Assembly: GCF_000732905.1 (NCBI RefSeq)
Contig: NZ_CP007588.1
Span: forward strand, 62,001 to 126,000
Source: Weissella tructae
Lineage (GTDB): Bacteria; Bacillota; Bacilli; Lactobacillales; Lactobacillaceae
Length of the DNA: 64,000 nucleotides
Direction of reading: 5' to 3'
This document shows, in pieces, positions 5,776 to 14,348 of this stretch (the first letter of the stretch is position 1; every line of letters starts with the position of its first letter). The translations under genes were made by a program, and so were the position numbers. The notes under the pieces were generated by a model that was not told where the DNA came from, searched no databases, and was given only the letters and a program-made list of their open reading frames with translations.

Positions 5776-5890
5776 TTGGATTTAATAGATAGGTGATGTT
5801 GAAGTATTGCAAGTGTATCGCGAGTCTCTTGTTAGATGTCGTGAAACGGCGTAGTAGACGCTGTGAGAGGGTTTTGTATCATTAGTGAGA

Positions 5891-5981
5891 GAAGAGAAGA
5901 GAAGAGAAGAGAAGAGAAGAGAAGAGAAGAGAAGAGAAGAGAAGAGAAGAGAAGAGAAGAGAAGAGAAGAGAAGAGAAGAG
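5891..5981 (+). repeat. GAAGA pentanucleotide microsatellite, 18 perfect copies
   Basis: Positions 5891-5980 are 18 uninterrupted copies of GAAGA (90 bp). The region between the rpsR terminator (5775) and the first tRNA terminator (6001) has no convincing gene. Open frames through the repeat exist on both strands simply because the repeat lacks stop codons. Read on the minus strand, the array gives a hydrophobic LLFSS repeat. The copy number may vary by slippage in replication. Confidence 0.95.
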
Positions 5982-6036: not shown

Positions 6037-6109
6037 TGGACAAGCTGGGGCTCGAACCCAGGACCCACGGATTAAGAGTCCGTTGCTCTACCAGCTGAGC
6101 TACTTGTCC
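6037..6109 (-). tRNA. tRNA-Lys (anticodon CTT), copy 1
   Basis: 73-nt cloverleaf on the minus strand: acceptor GGACAAG/CTTGTCC, D stem GCTC/GAGC, anticodon stem ACGGA/TCCGT with loop CTCTTAA (anticodon CTT, lysine AAG), and T stem CTGGG/CCCAG with TTCGAGC. The discriminator is A. CCA is not encoded. Its sequence is identical to the second copy 190 bp away. Confidence 0.96.
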
Positions 6110-6226: not shown

Positions 6227-6299
6227 TGGACAAGCTGGGGCTCGAACCCAGGACCCACGGATTAAGAGTCCGTTGCTCTACCAGCTGAGCTACTTGTCC
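6227..6299 (-). tRNA. tRNA-Lys (anticodon CTT), copy 2
   Basis: Identical 73-nt cloverleaf to the copy at 6037. The upstream flank is also conserved (AAAACGTTT, then TTGTTTTAACAACAGAT read on the + strand), so the tRNA and its leader were duplicated together. It lies between the other copy and walR and reads away from walR. Confidence 0.96.
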
Positions 6300-6460: not shown

Positions 6461-7165
6461 ATGACAAAAATTTTAGTAGTTGATGACGAGAAGCCAATCT
6501 CGGACATTATTAAATTTAACTTGAGTAAAGAAGGCTATGACGTTGTTGTAGCAATGGATGGTAAAGAAGCTTTGGAAGTATTCGAAGTGGAATCACCTGA
6601 CTTAATTTTATTGGATCAAATGTTACCTGAAGTAGAAGGAACAGAAGTATTGCGTCAAATTCGAACAACTTCTCAAGTTCCTATCATTATGGTGACGGCT
6701 AAGGACTCTGAAATCGACAAAGTTCTAGGATTAGAGATGGGGGCAGATGATTATGTCACCAAGCCATTCTCAAATCGTGAATTGTTGGCCCGTGTAAAAG
6801 CGAACTTACGTCGACAGGCTCCAATGGCAGTTGCAGTAGATGAAGTAGAAGCTGGAGATATCAAGATTGGTTCATTGATTATTCATCCAGATGCATATAT
6901 GGTTGCTAAAGATGGTGAAGACATTGAATTGACTCACCGTGAGTTTGAATTGTTGCACCATTTGGCAAAGCACATTGGTCAAGTGATGACCCGTGATGAT
7001 TTGCTACAAACGGTTTGGGGATTTGATTACTTTGGAGATGTCCGTACAGTAGACGTTACCGTACGTCGAATTCGTGAAAAGATTGAAGAAGCACCAAGTC
7101 ATCCACAAATTTTGATGACGCGACGTGGTGTCGGATACTACCTCAAGGTGGCTGAAGACGCTTAA
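6461..7165 (+). CDS. walR: WalR response regulator (YycF)
   Basis: 234-residue OmpR-type regulator, the essential controller of cell-wall turnover in low-GC Gram-positives. The receiver domain has the acidic pair D8-D9, the phosphoacceptor D52 in LLDQMLP and K101 in VTKPF. Residues about 135-230 form the winged-helix DNA-binding domain, ending in the typical [16 protein letters not shown] stretch and [15 protein letters not shown] site precedes the ATG. First gene of walRKHIJ, which here leads to htrA. Confidence 0.97.
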
Positions 7166-7233
7166 GGCGTGCGAAGTTGATAACGAGCGCTTTGCATTTA
7201 GCAAGCGCTCGTTTTTAGATATAGGGGTTAGTT

Positions 7234-9093
7234 ATGAAACGGAAATGGAAAGGTTGGAATTGGCATCGGATTTTTTCGTCAATCTATGTCAAAATCGCAG
7301 TAGTATTCACATTGACGCTATTGGTGACGTTAGAAGTTATCGGTACGTTTTTTGTTAAGCAATTAGAAAATCAAAATTTAGAACAACTGCGTACGCAGAT
7401 TGCGTTAAAACCATATGTAACCGATTCGTTGACTGAAGATTTGTCGGAGAATAATGACGAGGCGATGCAACGAATGTTGACGTCTATTAATAATCCGGCT
7501 ATTACTGAAATTTTGGTTATTGACTCAAGTGGTATTATTCGTGCGACTAATAATGTTAATAGCCAAGATCGTATTGGTAAGAAAACAACACATACAGATG
7601 TTAAAGCAGCTTTGGCAGGGAGTGATTACAATCGCACGCCGATTGAATTACGAGGCGATGAACGTTACCAATTGACAATCCGTCCGTTAATTCATGCATC
7701 TAATGGGCAGAATCGAACGGTTGGTGTGGTTGTTGTTCGTGCTAATCTAAAAAGTGTTTACGATAACTTGAATAATATTTCGATGATTTTCCTTTCGGCG
7801 TCTATTTTGGCGATTGTATTGGGATTTGTTATGGCGATTATTATTTCACGCAGTTTGGCGCGTCCAATTACAGAAATTAATGATCGAACCGTTCGTATTG
7901 CGCGTGGTGACTATTCAGGAACTATTGAAGTTCGTACGAATGACGAAATTGGTCAATTAGCACAAAATGTTAATACTTTGGCATCTCGTATTGAAGAAAC
8001 CACTAACTCTATTGATTTTGAACGCCGTCGATTAGACTCCGTTTTGGAATACATGACAGATGGTGTCTTAGCTACTGATCGACGTGGAAATATCAATATG
8101 ATTAATTCTATGGCGGTTCGTATGCTGGGAGTCGAAGACGGGAATGATGCAATTGGTAAGTCTATCCTGTCATTGTTGGGGATTGAAGACGAATACACTT
8201 TGCGTGATTTACTAGGTGAGCAACAAGAATTGATGCTAGATTTGAGTGATGCGTCAACGACTTTGTATCTAAAAGCGTACTTTAGCTTGATTCAACGTTC
8301 ATCTGGATTTATATCTGGGTTAGTAATCGTGCTGCATGACGTTACTGAGCAATACAAGATTGAAACAGAACGACGTCAATTCGTTTCGAATGTGTCGCAT
8401 GAATTGCGTACCCCGCTAACGTCCGTGAAATCATATGTTGATGCTTTGCAAGAAGGTGCCATAGAAGACGAAGAGTTATCTCGCAACTTCTTGAGTGTTG
8501 TTGAAGACGAAACGTCACGTATGATCCGAATGATTAATGACTTGTTGGAATTGTCTCGTATGGATTCCTCAACGCTAAAGTTGGATTCAGAATATGTCAA
8601 TATTGGTGAATTATTTAATTATATTTTAGACCGATTTGATATGATCATCGCGAATGATGAACAACCAGAAAAACGTTATACCATTTCGCGTGACATTTCA
8701 TCTGTACCTATTTGGGTAGAACTTGATCCTTCGAAATTTACACAAGTGGTTGATAATGTGATGAATAATGCGATTAAGTATTCTCCTGATGGTGGGGTTA
8801 TTAGCGTTGAGATGGTGGATCATGGTAATCGTGTTGTGCTGAGTGTGAATGACCAAGGATTGGGAATTCCAGCAGCAGATTTGAAGCATGTCTTTGACCG
8901 ATTCTTCCGTGTTGATAAAGCACGTTCTCGTGCCCAAGGAGGAAGTGGATTAGGGTTGGCTATTTCAAAGGAAATTATCGAACGTTTTGGTGGTCGCATC
9001 TGGGTGGAATCTGTTGAAGGACGTGGGTCAACATTCTATATTTCATTGCCGTATGAAGCGTACGATTTAGGCGAGGATGACTGGGATGAATAG
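7234..9093 (+). CDS. walK: WalK sensor histidine kinase (YycG)
   Basis: 619 residues. It is the membrane kinase partner of WalR. Order of parts: transmembrane segment about 15-38, an extracellular sensor region about 39-180, a second membrane segment about 182-204, HAMP about 205-257, PAS about 265-370, the HisKA H-box with phospho-His389 in SHELRTPL, then the ATPase domain with NDQGLGIP and GSGLGLAIS. The 68-base gap after walR holds an imperfect GCGCT-rich hairpin (about 7169-7214). The 3' end overlaps the start of walH. Confidence 0.97.
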   Translation: MKRKWKGWNWHRIFSSIYVKIAVVFTLTLLVTLEVIGTFFVKQLENQNLEQLRTQIALKPYVTDSLTEDLSENNDEAMQRMLTSINNPAITEILVIDSSGIIRATNNVNSQDRIGKKTTHTDVKAALAGSDYNRTPIELRGDERYQLTIRPLIHASNGQNRTVGVVVVRANLKSVYDNLNNISMIFLSASILAIVLGFVMAIIISRSLARPITEINDRTVRIARGDYSGTIEVRTNDEIGQLAQNVNTLASRIEETTNSIDFERRRLDSVLEYMTDGVLATDRRGNINMINSMAVRMLGVEDGNDAIGKSILSLLGIEDEYTLRDLLGEQQELMLDLSDASTTLYLKAYFSLIQRSSGFISGLVIVLHDVTEQYKIETERRQFVSNVSHELRTPLTSVKSYVDALQEGAIEDEELSRNFLSVVEDETSRMIRMINDLLELSRMDSSTLKLDSEYVNIGELFNYILDRFDMIIANDEQPEKRYTISRDISSVPIWVELDPSKFTQVVDNVMNNAIKYSPDGGVISVEMVDHGNRVVLSVNDQGLGIPAADLKHVFDRFFRVDKARSRAQGGSGLGLAISKEIIERFGGRIWVESVEGRGSTFYISLPYEAYDLGEDDWDE

Positions 9094-10402
9094 GCGTAAA
9101 TGGCGTGCTTTATTAAAACAATATTTGTTGATTGTGGTACTGATGATTTTAGTGGCCGTGAGTTTGATGTTGTCATTTGGTATCTGGAGTTCTCTAGGGG
9201 ACCGACCATTATACATTGCGCCTAGTGAATCAGCGGATTCAGATAAGCGATTGGTGTCGGAAAAAGACATCGTGTCCGTCTATGACTTTGATAATGTTGT
9301 GGTTAATCAAAAGGGTAAACAACAACTCGTGATGAACTCGCGTAGTATTACGCGTGAAGTTTTAGCGGTAATGGGTGACTGGCAGATTAATACGGTTACT
9401 GCGGAAAAGTTAGATGAAAAGCAATATCTAAAATTGATGAACGAAAAAAATACTGTCTTATTGGGATATCCTGACCAAGTTGTAGGTAGTTTAGTCGAAT
9501 CACGATTAAACTTGGGGATTGGATTGACAGATGATGATCGTGTTGACCGTGTGCAATTGCCACTGAGTGGTAAGGGACAAGTTCGTTTCTTTAACGACCG
9601 AACACGTGATGTTTACACGGCTTCTATCATGACGCCTGGAACGTCGTTGGACGACATTAAATGGCCTAAAAATATGACAGATGTCAATTTTGAATGGCGC
9701 CAAAATCGTTTGCGTATGAACTATTTATCTGAAACGAAATTGAAGACAAAGAGTTATTTGTTAGATGAATCTAAACGAGCTGATGTTGTGGCTACTGCCT
9801 TTAAATCCGCGCGTGTTACACCGTATTTGGTAGATACGCCGGATGATAAGGTTGAATATACTGATGGTGATACGCGACGTTTGGTGTTGAATAAACAGTC
9901 TGGAAATGTTGAAATGACGGAATACGATAGTAAGACAATGCCACGTGCGATGAGTAGTAATATGACTCATGCATATGACACGTTGGTTGCGTTGAAACAA
10001 GTTCCGGAAAACATGTATTACTTTGAAGAGTTAGAGGACGGAATGAAATTGTCATATCGTCTCTACGTTGAAGGGTTGCCGATGTTTATGTCAGAGAATT
10101 TTGATTTTGGAACAATTTCGGTTACGTATGAATCCAATCGTCAAACTGTAGATTATTCTGTTTATGGTATTCAGGTGCCGTTACCTGATAAAAATGAAAA
10201 GACGATTACGTTAGATAATACTGAAACGGTGATGGAGAAGTTAACTGATGCTGGTGTTGATACGAAAAAAGTTCAAGGGTTAACGATGGGTTATAGTTGG
10301 CTTGAAAACGACGAAGAAGGTTATATCACATTGCAGCCAGCTTGGTTTGTACAAATGAAGGATGAGTGGCTACCTGTGACATTCTATACAGGAGCTGTTT
10401 AA
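9086..10402 (+). CDS. walH: WalH, regulator of WalK (YycH family)
   Basis: 438 residues. A short cytoplasmic N-terminus and one membrane anchor (about 11-33) lead to a large extracellular YycH domain. In B. subtilis YycH and YycI contact WalK in the membrane and tune its activity. The start at 9086 is chosen over the ATG at 9077 because GAGG (9073-9076) abuts the latter but lies 9 bases before the former. Overlaps the end of walK, so translation is probably coupled. Confidence 0.9.
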   Translation: MNRRKWRALLKQYLLIVVLMILVAVSLMLSFGIWSSLGDRPLYIAPSESADSDKRLVSEKDIVSVYDFDNVVVNQKGKQQLVMNSRSITREVLAVMGDWQINTVTAEKLDEKQYLKLMNEKNTVLLGYPDQVVGSLVESRLNLGIGLTDDDRVDRVQLPLSGKGQVRFFNDRTRDVYTASIMTPGTSLDDIKWPKNMTDVNFEWRQNRLRMNYLSETKLKTKSYLLDESKRADVVATAFKSARVTPYLVDTPDDKVEYTDGDTRRLVLNKQSGNVEMTEYDSKTMPRAMSSNMTHAYDTLVALKQVPENMYYFEELEDGMKLSYRLYVEGLPMFMSENFDFGTISVTYESNRQTVDYSVYGIQVPLPDKNEKTITLDNTETVMEKLTDAGVDTKKVQGLTMGYSWLENDEEGYITLQPAWFVQMKDEWLPVTFYTGAV

Positions 10403-10430
10403 TATATGGAATAAGTGGGGAGGAAAGCAA

Positions 10431-11237
10431 ATGAATATCAGAAAAATGTTGTGGACCTTTCTATATTTGTTTCTAATTGTGGATGGCATTTTGTTGTATC
10501 AATGGGTCAGCGTCAATGACACGGTAGTGGACCCAGCATCTGCGAAAAATATTCAACAAGAAATCCGTATGGATGGTATTTCATTTGATTCGCTAGATGC
10601 ACATGTACCATCAGGAGCCTATTACTCAGGTGAAGATGGTGGTTCGTATTTGAATAAACAAAAAAATCAAATTTCAGATGATTGGCGAGTGAATGTATCT
10701 GGTGAGAAGTTACGTGCGACGCCTAAAGAGCCTGTTGACTTAGGTGACAGCATGAATAGTGCGAAAGAAACCTTGGAGAAATTAGTGTCGGATGAACGGA
10801 ATGTCATTTCCGGTGAAGATTATGTGTATGATCCTGAATTAAGTAGTAATGATAATCAAGATGGTTTGCGTGTGATCGTTTTTTCTCAGAAAATAGGACA
10901 AGAAACTTTTGTATCATCCCGTGGACAAATTCAGTTCAGTTTTGATGAATATTTCAATCTAAAAAGTTATACACAGACATATGTGACGGGAATTCAGCTT
11001 TTGAGTGAAGTGCCCGCAATTTTGTCGGAACGTAGTGCCTTTTTTAATGCGTATCAATTTAATGAAATTCCAAATAACTCGACATTGGATTGGCGAAAGC
11101 CGGGATATGCAACTTTGATGGATGTCCGTGGTGAAACAATTTATATTCCTGTTTGGACGTTTTCATTAACAAATGCGGCAGGTGAGAAAACGATGGTTCG
11201 CATTAATGCGTTAAATGGTTCGTTGATAAAGAATTAG
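10431..11237 (+). CDS. walI: WalI, regulator of WalK (YycI family)
   Basis: 268 residues. A membrane anchor at about 6-26 (ending LLYQWVSV) is followed by an extracellular YycI domain. It forms a complex with WalH and WalK in related species. GAGGAAAGC precedes the ATG. Its order between walH and the MBL-fold gene is the conserved one. Confidence 0.9.
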   Translation: MNIRKMLWTFLYLFLIVDGILLYQWVSVNDTVVDPASAKNIQQEIRMDGISFDSLDAHVPSGAYYSGEDGGSYLNKQKNQISDDWRVNVSGEKLRATPKEPVDLGDSMNSAKETLEKLVSDERNVISGEDYVYDPELSSNDNQDGLRVIVFSQKIGQETFVSSRGQIQFSFDEYFNLKSYTQTYVTGIQLLSEVPAILSERSAFFNAYQFNEIPNNSTLDWRKPGYATLMDVRGETIYIPVWTFSLTNAAGEKTMVRINALNGSLIKN

Positions 11238-11262
11238 CAGTATAGAGAAGAGGTTGAATGTA

Positions 11263-12060
11263 GTGAGTGATTTTAAAGCCTCGATGTTAGCGTCGAGTAG
11301 TACGGGTAATGTGACGTACGTAGAAACCCCAGGGCGAAAAGTTTTATTAGACGCTGGTTTATCTGGTAAAAAAATTGAGGGGTTAATGCAAGAGGTGGAT
11401 CGTTCATTGGCGGATGTAGATTCTATTTTTGTCAGTCATGAACATTCAGATCATATTGCGGGAGTTGGTATCTTGTCGCGTAAATATGACATGGATATTT
11501 ATGCGAATGAGGAAACCTGGGCTGCTATGGCACCTAAGATTGGTAAGATTGCGCCGGAACATATTAAAATCTGTCGTCCTGGTGAGGTTATTGACTTGGG
11601 TGACTTGGAAGTTGAAAGTTACTCCGTATCGCATGATGCGGCTAATCCACAATTTTATTCTTTTCACCACGCAAATAAGACGTTTGCAGCGTTGACAGAT
11701 ACTGGGTATGTCAATGACCGTATGTTGTCATCATTACGCAATGCAGATGCGTTGTTGTTTGAATCTAATCATGATTATGAAATGCTACGCATGGGGAGTT
11801 ATGCTTGGTCTTTAAAACAACGTATTTTAGGTGATAAAGGCCACTTGTCTAATGAAGATGGTGCGTTGGCGTTGGCTGAAGTTATTGGTTCTAGGACGAA
11901 GAATGTCTTTTTGGGGCATTTGAGTCAGGAAAATAACCAACAAGAATTGGCGTATTTGACGGTTAAAGGGATTTTGGAAGCGAAAGACTTTGCGGTTAAT
12001 CACGACTTCTTGATGCATAACACAGAACCTCTGTCTGCATCAAGATTAATTGATATTTAA
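11263..12060 (+). CDS. walJ: WalJ, metallo-beta-lactamase-fold hydrolase (YycJ)
   Basis: 265 residues from a GTG start. It has the metal-binding motif SHEHSDH (H59, H61, D63, H64) and later LTDTGY, HDYEML and FLGHLSQENN. YycJ proteins are putative nucleases or phosphodiesterases linked to DNA repair and wall control. AGAGG at 11249-11253 is 9 bases before the GTG. A TTG at 11254 is in frame but abuts that site, and the ATG at 11258 is out of frame. Confidence 0.93.
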   Translation: MSDFKASMLASSSTGNVTYVETPGRKVLLDAGLSGKKIEGLMQEVDRSLADVDSIFVSHEHSDHIAGVGILSRKYDMDIYANEETWAAMAPKIGKIAPEHIKICRPGEVIDLGDLEVESYSVSHDAANPQFYSFHHANKTFAALTDTGYVNDRMLSSLRNADALLFESNHDYEMLRMGSYAWSLKQRILGDKGHLSNEDGALALAEVIGSRTKNVFLGHLSQENNQQELAYLTVKGILEAKDFAVNHDFLMHNTEPLSASRLIDI

Positions 12061-12284: not shown

Positions 12285-12350
12285 TTAAGCCAGCTTAAAG
12301 GGAATCGACCTACCATGAACTCATACGAAACGAAGGGGAGTGGAAGTGAC

Positions 12351-13490
12351 ATGAAAAAAACGATGAAGACAGTCGTTATTGCGCTGTTGGCTGGATTGAT
12401 TGGTGGTGGACTTTCTGTAGGGCTTGGTGCTTATTATGGTGTCTTTGAACCTAAAACAGAAAAAGTAGTTAATTCATCAGATACGAAAGTAGCAGATACA
12501 GCAGTGAAAGATGATTCGAAAGCAACGCAAGCCTTTAAATCGGTGTCTGGTGCAATTGTGTCAGTTATCAATCTCCAAGGTAGCCAAAATAGTGATGAGT
12601 TGTTAGAGACGGCGTCAGAGGGGTCAGGGGTTATTTATAAGAGCTCTGGTCGTGATGCGTATGTCGTGACGAATAATCACGTTGTAGATGGATCTAAGAA
12701 AATACAAATCTTAATGCAAGATGGAACGAAAGAACCGGCCGAATTAGTTGGGACAGATGTTGAAACTGATTTGGCGGTGTTGAAGATTTCGAATAAAGCG
12801 GTGAAAGATGTCGCTAAATTTGCAAATTCTGATCAATTGCAACCTGGTGAAACAGCATTGGCGATTGGGTCTCCATTAGGATCGGAATACGCTACTTCTG
12901 TGACGGAAGGAATTATTTCTGCGCCAAAACGTGAAATTGAAACGCAAGCACCGAATGGACAACGTCTAGGAAAAACAACGGTTATTCAAACTGACGCAGC
13001 GATTAACCCAGGAAACTCTGGTGGTGCATTGGTTAATCTGGCGGGGCAAGTTGTTGGGATTAATTCAATGAAGTTGTCAACGTCACAATCCGGAACGGCA
13101 GTTGAAGGAATGGGATTTGCGATTCCAGCGAATACGGTTGTGAAAATTATTGAAGCATTAGAAAAAGATGGTAAAGTCACACGACCAAGTTTGGGTGTTT
13201 CTTTGTATGATTTGAGTAATATTTCTTCGGTCGATCAAGCGGATGTATTAAAATTGCCAACGAAAGTGAAGACTGGAGTTGTTGTGATCAAGACGACCCG
13301 CGATGGTTCAGCTGAAAAGGCTGGGCTGAAAAAGTTTGATGTCATTACGAAGTTGAATGATATTTCAGTTTCTGATGCAAATGACTTACGTAATGCGTTA
13401 TATAAGTTCGATGTGAATGAAAAAATCACCGTAACATATTATCGTGATGGTAAAGAACAGACGGTTCAATTGCAGTTACAGTCGAATTAA
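12351..13490 (+). CDS. htrA: HtrA/DegP-type membrane-anchored serine protease
   Basis: 379 residues. Surface quality-control protease that degrades misfolded exported proteins. One membrane anchor (about 6-28) precedes a trypsin-like domain with the triad H110, D140 and S223 (GNSGGA). A C-terminal PDZ domain covers about 285-375. The start at 12351 follows AAGGGGAG by 10 bases and places the anchor at the N-terminus. Upstream in-frame ATGs (12264, 12315) lack a good site. It follows walJ, as in many lactic acid bacteria. Confidence 0.94.
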   Translation: MKKTMKTVVIALLAGLIGGGLSVGLGAYYGVFEPKTEKVVNSSDTKVADTAVKDDSKATQAFKSVSGAIVSVINLQGSQNSDELLETASEGSGVIYKSSGRDAYVVTNNHVVDGSKKIQILMQDGTKEPAELVGTDVETDLAVLKISNKAVKDVAKFANSDQLQPGETALAIGSPLGSEYATSVTEGIISAPKREIETQAPNGQRLGKTTVIQTDAAINPGNSGGALVNLAGQVVGINSMKLSTSQSGTAVEGMGFAIPANTVVKIIEALEKDGKVTRPSLGVSLYDLSNISSVDQADVLKLPTKVKTGVVVIKTTRDGSAEKAGLKKFDVITKLNDISVSDANDLRNALYKFDVNEKITVTYYRDGKEQTVQLQLQSN

Positions 13491-13522: not shown

Positions 13523-13552
13523 TTGGTTCGGCTTTTGGATAAACGTTATACT
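13523..13552 (+). promoter_or_regulatory. Promoter of the C-loop RNA
   Basis: TTGGTT (13523-13528), an 18-bp spacer and TATACT (13547-13552). Start point predicted near 13559. Confidence 0.55.
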
Positions 13553-13558
13553 TAATGT

Positions 13559-13736
13559 TGTCAACGATAGTTGAACACCATTACTCCCCGAGGTAATGTA
13601 ACAATTATGTGGTCCCCACCACATAATTATAGTTAGGTTGTCCCCGAAAACGACCTAACAGATATTGTGGCCACAACCCCCTTGTGGTCATGAAAAAGAA
13701 AAAACCTAGCCCAATTGGACTAGGTTTTTTCTTTTT
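13559..13736 (+). ncRNA. Small RNA with four hairpins displaying C-rich loops
   Basis: Between htrA and the convergent DUF1934 gene lies an RNA-like segment with promoter and terminator. After a small TCAAC/GTTGA hairpin come four in a row: CATTAC/GTAATG with loop TCCCCGAG (13579-13598); a 10-bp stem with loop TCCCCA (13603-13628); an 8-bp stem with loop TCCCCGAAAA (13633-13658); and a 9-bp stem with loop CCCCC (13668-13690). The terminator (13703-13736) ends it. Repeated UCCC loops are the mark of small RNAs that pair with Shine-Dalgarno sequences, such as Listeria LhrC or staphylococcal Rsa RNAs. Function here is inferred. Confidence 0.65.
13701..13736. terminator. Bidirectional terminator between the C-loop RNA and the DUF1934 gene
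   Basis: An AACCTAGCCC/GGACTAGGTT stem (one mismatch, AATT loop) is flanked by A-rich and T-rich tracts on both sides, so it can serve both convergent units. Confidence 0.85.
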
Positions 13737-13744
13737 GTGCAATT

Positions 13745-14173
13745 TTATACAGTTGTGTAGTTTAAAGCGAAATCGTAGTGACCAATAAGGTCGTCGCCTG
13801 ACTTAAGAGCGTAGGCGACATGGCATGTACCATCGGTTGTGTTGATTGATAATGCGCTTGTGTGAATATCAAATACGAAGTTACCGACTGCAGTGCGGTA
13901 GTGAGTTGTTGTAGGTTGTGTTAAATCAAACGTTAAGCGTGCGTTCGCAGCACCTGAACGACGAATTTGCAATGTGTTATCGTCTGCAAGTTTGATGGTC
14001 ACGTTTGTCTGTAAAGTGGTGTCATCAACAGAGGTTTCTTCAATGTAACGGATGTAGGTTGCGTTGGCCATCTCGGTAGCAGTTCCTGAGGTAACTGTTT
14101 CGATGGTTTCGCTTTGGTTTTCTTGTGTGATTTTACTGATGGCAGTTAGGGCGATGGCAGTTTCTTGCGGCAT
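13745..14173 (-). CDS. DUF1934 family beta-barrel protein (YwiB-like)
   Basis: 142 residues, soluble. The alternating beta pattern and the ending GHYDFALNYTTV fit DUF1934 (B. subtilis YwiB), a small lipocalin-like barrel family without an assigned ligand. The start at 14173 is set by AAGGAG 7 bases upstream; the open frame continues upstream without coding character. One of only a few minus-strand protein genes here, convergent with the C-loop RNA and divergent from the HD gene. Confidence 0.82.
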   Translation of the reverse strand: MPQETAIALTAISKITQENQSETIETVTSGTATEMANATYIRYIEETSVDDTTLQTNVTIKLADDNTLQIRRSGAANARLTFDLTQPTTTHYRTAVGNFVFDIHTSALSINTTDGTCHVAYALKSGDDLIGHYDFALNYTTV

Positions 14174-14348
14174 GGTGAGCTCCTTGGTGTGAATATTATA
14201 GAGTTTATTATACGCTCGTAGCCGATGAATAGTAAGGTATGGTTGGTGATAAAGCCAGACAAGGAAGTGGGGATGATGATATAATAAGGCTTTAAGAAGC
14301 GTTTTAATGTTTATTACATAGTAATTGCGATGAAAAAGGAGGCAGACA

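Follow-up and report, generated by a model that had tools for sequence, protein, structure and literature searches.

A conserved small RNA gene with C-rich hairpin loops downstream of htrA in Weissella, probable founder of an undescribed Lactobacillaceae family

Few small RNAs have been characterised in Lactobacillaceae. The closest described systems come from Listeria, streptococci and staphylococci. In the LhrC RNAs of Listeria, C-rich UCCC motifs, placed in loops or in single-stranded stretches, pair with Shine-Dalgarno (SD) sites, and the stem opens, with the loop and the 5' arm pairing with the target (PMC4132741). The Weissella RNA described here resembles LhrC1-5 in its repeated UCCC motifs, which give several redundant sites per RNA. 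Control of LhrC by the LisRK two-component system in envelope stress and its multicopy occurrence, as for our RNA in genus g55, are further points of likeness (PMC4132741). The csRNAs of streptococci, controlled by CiaRH, are similar in their combined anti-SD and anti-AUG (CAU) elements and in an upstream direct-repeat box with a 5-nt spacer, often with several copies (PMC3091779). The htrA gene is also reported to be CiaR-regulated (PMC10197876). In IsrR of staphylococci, several C-rich regions pair with SD sites and their use depends on the target; the likeness here lies in C-rich regions that are exposed at several places, two of the three in stem-loops, in the end terminator and in SD pairing (PMC9410917).

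The RNA gene lies in the window (the whole 64-kb stretch of Weissella tructae DNA that was analysed) downstream of a walR operon and htrA. The features are as follows.

6461..12060, + strand: walR, walK, yycH, yycI, yycJ-like operon, upstream of htrA (Pfam)
12335..12341, + strand: GGGGAGT in the leader of htrA, able to pair with ACUCCCC in hairpin B (candidate target site)
12351..13490, + strand: htrA, trypsin-like protease with a PDZ domain, upstream of the RNA (Pfam PF13365, PF13180)
13523..13552, + strand: promoter, TTGGTT (weak -35, 13523-13528), 18 nt, TATACT (-10, 13547-13552) (sequence)
13559..13736, + strand: small RNA gene, about 178 nt (fold z -10.5; conserved in Weissella and other genera)
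13559..13577, + strand: hairpin A, 5' end, loop without a C run (fold)
13579..13598, + strand: hairpin B, CATTACTCCCCGAGGTAATG, CCCC loop, nearly invariant, with anti-AUG (CAU) and anti-SD (ACUCCCC) (fold, genus pattern search)
13603..13628, + strand: hairpin C, CCCC loop (fold)
13632..13659, + strand: hairpin D, loop UCCCCGAAAA with CCCC (fold)
13666..13692, + strand: hairpin E, CCCCC loop (fold)
13693..13736, + strand: Rho-independent terminator (fold; T tract)
13745-14177, - strand: convergent gene downstream of the RNA (position)

The minimum free energy of 13559-13736 was -70.9 kcal/mol, compared to a mean of -32.4 (sd 3.67) for shuffled sequences (z -10.5), and none of 200 shuffles folded as well. 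The four C-loop hairpins claimed by the first-pass annotation, together with hairpin A, whose loop has no C run, were confirmed by the fold, and the case proved stronger than first stated. When both strands of the 64-kb window were scanned by folding 178-nt segments, only one of 2,128 contained four CCCC loops, namely the RNA locus itself; the two other + strand stretches with at least two CCCC loops both overlapped it. The absence of a coding frame also held. The only + strand reading frames of at least 20 amino acids in 13559-13736 had 21 and 34 codons, none of them convincing, and the indels among homologues were not multiples of three; a coding capacity of the region was therefore rejected. 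The promoter pair is present, not within the RNA region where it had first been placed but just upstream of it, with a poor -35 that the consensus scan left unscored. Likewise, the terminator was seen in the fold with its T tract and was missed by a simple terminator scan; it probably serves the convergent gene too. A -10-like hexamer (at least 5/6 match) was found upstream of hairpin A in all 28 Weissella copies (shuffled mean 13) and in 15 of 16 copies from other genera (shuffled mean 8), at a mostly constant distance from the hairpin.

The RNA was found in all 28 Weissella genomes. In 27 it follows htrA directly, among them W. viridescens, W. cibaria, W. muntiaci, W. oryzae and W. minor; several further genus genomes carried copies identical in sequence to those of named species. 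The exception, G004 (66% complete), has an htrA neighbourhood that looks rearranged. Among relatives, blastn gave a single match in the genus, the sister genome, because the stems change freely, and pattern and covariance searches were therefore needed. The pattern of hairpin B matched in 27 of 28 genus genomes. One match in G012, away from htrA, looked like a chance match and was rejected; the true copy of this genome and that of G005 were found downstream of htrA.

Hairpins A to E were kept in the 24 distinct Weissella sequences that were folded. In alignment A1, compensatory changes occurred in 37 of 50 pairs, and 81% of cells paired, compared to 34-45% when the partners were slid. Such changes were seen in 8 of 8 pairs of hairpin A, 8 of 9 of hairpin C, 9 of 11 of hairpin D and 11 of 13 of hairpin E. 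Thus the homologues keep the stems and the C-rich loops, which was the test that the first-pass annotation had set for itself. Hairpin B was nearly frozen in both sequence and structure, with (nearly) invariant columns in alignments A1 and A2; it showed little covariation, and its stem therefore rests on invariance. Variation was lowest in two loops, UCCCC of hairpin B and CCC-CUCUU of hairpin E, the latter nearly invariant in the genus as CCC(C)UCUU. The C-rich loop of hairpin C was present in most relatives and lost in L124, L135 and L150, and the C run of hairpin D occurred only in the sub-clade of the window and its sister G021, the D hairpins of other Weissella having none. Hairpin E doubles as the terminator in most relatives. 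In the 1.3-Mb genome of G012 (locus L150), hairpin B lacked the C run (CTCTTCAAAG), hairpin C had none either, and the loop of E was intact; these losses possibly reflect decay or a shift of targets.

With covariance models, the RNA was recovered from four or more further genera of Lactobacillaceae: in all seven genomes listed of g34 (E down to 1e-20), in 4 of 5 genomes of g36, in one genome of g8 and in all seven genomes listed of g33 (E about 1e-4 to 1e-6). Model R2 was trained on group members found with model R1, and the E-values of R1 are therefore the independent ones; these ranged from 1e-4 to 1e-10 in g34, g36 and g8, and those of g33 were weak, at about 0.005-0.04. Several R1 or R2 matches (L193, L194, L195, L236 and L249) were judged false on sequence. 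By sequence inspection, the order of the hairpins was the same in the other genera, with B as TTCATTACTCCCC..AGTAATG and C with a CCCCC loop, and the terminator loop was C-rich in g34, g36 and g8. The neighbours were different: the RNA mostly follows rplS in g34, a transporter-like gene with CBS domains in g36 and a GntP-type permease gene in g8, and in g33 it has a CPBP-protease gene on one side and metabolic genes on the other. The unrelated neighbours in each genus indicate that the RNA gene is free-standing and that the link to htrA is a feature of Weissella. A class-level sample of 200 genomes, searched with the short covariance model R3, gave a match in the window's own genome only.

Distant look-alikes were present in three more genera (g3, g50 and g55), with hairpin B kept as TTTCATTTACTCCTCCAAAGTAATGAAA or nearly so; their putative homology depends mainly on this hairpin. 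The g55 genomes held two to five RNA loci (among them L245 and L246 on contig 17 of genome G624, L256 and L240), some in tandem or as neighbouring pairs, and the L240 copy had an additional large structured domain and more C loops. The g33 copies (L225-L235) were almost invariant; their 5' part is extended (GTGAGGCTTCTGTCCTCAT), and the linker CCTTACTC precedes a terminator without a C loop. Outside the family, in locus L239 of genome G350 (1011-1148), TTCATTACTCCCCAAGTA precedes a terminator whose loop is TTCCCCT; the middle part is different, and the locus may be a member of the RNA family outside Lactobacillaceae.

An unbiased count of hexamer-N5-hexamer repeats over 62 RNA leaders showed enrichment of TGTAAC/TGTAAT and TTCACA, in 17 leaders compared to 0.3-2.5 expected, and the 5-nt spacer was strongly preferred over other spacings. 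The exact form TGTWAH-N5-TGTWAH, which is the published WalR motif (PMC6624279), stood upstream in 5 of 28 Weissella leaders (shuffle mean 0.2) and in 3 of 19 g34/g8 leaders (shuffle mean 0.14), counts in which related leaders are not independent of each other; about 180 kb of flanks contained no exact match. In g34, the half-sites occupied a fixed position and the spacer varied. The promoter of the window copy itself had no clear WalR box. Given the kinship of the leaders and the missing box in the window, we treat WalR control as a hypothesis with some support and not as a result. With less confidence than for the RNA itself, we suggest from these repeats that transcription is under an OmpR-type response regulator, which may be WalR in at least some lineages. 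The first-pass annotation had argued for a link to envelope stress from gene position only; WalR-type boxes in relatives whose RNA lies away from walRK support this role independently of position, a point that does not extend to the window copy.

Rfam 15 at gathering score, with LhrC among the families considered, gave only tRNA in the window and nothing in ten homologous loci, and permissive thresholds gave nothing credible in the window or in six homologous loci. RsaE/RoxS (RF01820), whose likeness consists in C-rich motifs in Firmicutes and a weak sub-threshold match in the window, was rejected as a parent family: it scored 25.1 bits compared to a gathering score of 79, and was not among the permissive-scan matches of the six loci. 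Like LhrC, the RNA has several UCCC motifs, with four C-run loops of which those of B, C and D are preceded by U, kept in relatives. However, LhrC is built of two stem loops with three motifs, as opposed to five hairpins and an anti-AUG arm in the Weissella RNA, some copies of which have WalR-type boxes upstream and which matched no Rfam model. Like the csRNAs, it combines anti-SD with anti-AUG, in CAUUACUCCCC of hairpin B with an invariant CAU. However, the promoter box of the csRNAs reads NTTAAG-N5-TTTAAG, their target-pairing segment is left unpaired whereas that of our RNA is in hairpins, and CiaRH is reported as streptococcal only. No CiaR box was seen in the promoter of the window copy, and the enriched leader repeats were TGTAAT/TGTAAC-N5 and TTCACA-N5 instead. 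IsrR differs in being Fur-controlled and iron-related, and no sequence relation to it was seen. By the tests run, the Weissella RNA is a member of none of LhrC, csRNA and IsrR, although on present evidence it would work like one of them. No published description of the RNA or of the hairpin B sequence was found in the open literature searched, and the view that it belongs to no described family holds for that literature and for Rfam 15. For L. casei BL23, 307 putative small RNAs have been reported from sequencing (PMC8220740), and the g33 copy may already be among them as an unnamed transcript.

These data make it probable that the locus, a gene standing on its own, encodes a small regulatory RNA that acts in trans. 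It would found a new, undescribed Lactobacillaceae family within a known kind of RNA. By analogy with the known systems, it most likely acts in trans, its C loops binding G-rich SD sites and blocking translation. The pairing would be seeded by the loops, which read CCCC in Weissella and the majority of relatives and CCUCC in some others, and it would hinder ribosome binding on several mRNAs; the csRNA, LhrC and IsrR precedents favour such blocking of several mRNAs. The CAUUACUCCCC segment of hairpin B is the complement of GGGGAGUAAUG, i.e. an SD, a short spacer and AUG. Hairpin B, CAUU(UU)ACUCC(C/U)C, would open, the loop pairing with the SD and the 5' arm (CAU) with the start codon, and such two-part pairing would explain why the stem of B is frozen whereas the other stems vary. 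Control by an OmpR-type regulator would make the RNA part of the cell-envelope response. We offer only tentatively the fuller picture of a core Lactobacillaceae small RNA family under WalR-type control, with a frozen anti-AUG and anti-SD hairpin echoed as C loops, tying the wall two-component system to post-transcriptional control.

The window's genome contained 112 GGGGAS-ATG sites, compared to 48 in a reversed control. A target search by G-rich SD, as first proposed, thus finds such sites to be frequent, and targets cannot be chosen by complementarity alone; no orthologue recurred as a target across species by loop complementarity, the TTGGGGAGT-ATG sites of 7 Weissella genomes lying in different genes, and GGGGAGTA-ATG sites clustered among close species only. 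An enrichment of signal peptides among GGGGAGTA genes (17/63 vs 8/100) was rejected because other genes with G-rich SDs gave 33/127. Candidate targets, as leads only, are htrA in the window clade, rpsL-, rpsG- and metK-like genes and, in other species, surface and wall proteins without specific enrichment. The GGGGAGT of the htrA leader occurred, besides the window, only in the sister genome G021, and a general autoregulation of htrA through this site was rejected since it is restricted to the window clade. A GGGG run lay near the start codon in 13 of 27 scored Weissella htrA leaders (12330-12353 in the window), and htrA may be a target in some species, not generally.

It is unlikely that the locus is a 3' UTR element of the htrA mRNA, made of stabilising hairpins and a terminator, or an RNA cut from the htrA transcript that acts mainly on htrA. 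The position directly after htrA in 27 of 28 genus genomes, the fit between loop B and the htrA-leader GGGGAGT, seen in the window and in the sister genome, and the 13 leaders with GGGG are in its favour, but half of the htrA leaders have no GGGG, a conserved -10 stands immediately before hairpin A, regulator boxes sit between htrA and the RNA, and other genera carry the same RNA beside other genes. The C-rich loops could instead bind a protein or titrate another RNA. The alternation of CCCC and CCUCC, each SD-complementary, and the separate C-loop hairpins with unrelated stems, which suggest that only the loop sequence matters, argue against this and make it improbable in our view, even though the stem and loop of hairpin B are both frozen, as in a protein site, and the complementarity search yielded no conserved mRNA target. 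A reading of the locus as nothing more than a double terminator, or as a structural spacer separating two convergent genes, its C loops having arisen by chance, is very hard to credit: the RNA does end in a terminator facing the convergent gene, but conservation contradicts this reading, with covarying stems and near-invariant loops over several genera, independent gene contexts and a C-loop count unique within the window.

One conserved family over Weissella and several other genera, multicopy in some, offers a defined point from which to study how RNAs regulate genes in bacteria of food and the gut. Should WalR indeed drive the RNA, an essential wall regulator would gain an RNA arm, which is testable. 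The RNA would then connect this two-component system with control after transcription, much as LhrC and the csRNAs do for other systems. The operon at 6461..12060 gave Pfam matches to a response regulator, Cache_WalK, YycH, YycI and Lactamase_B. Upstream of walR, a perfect tandem repeat of the 5-base unit AGAGA (18.8 copies, 5888-5981) adjoins two minus-strand tRNA genes (6037-6109 and 6227-6299) and is likely a slippage site.
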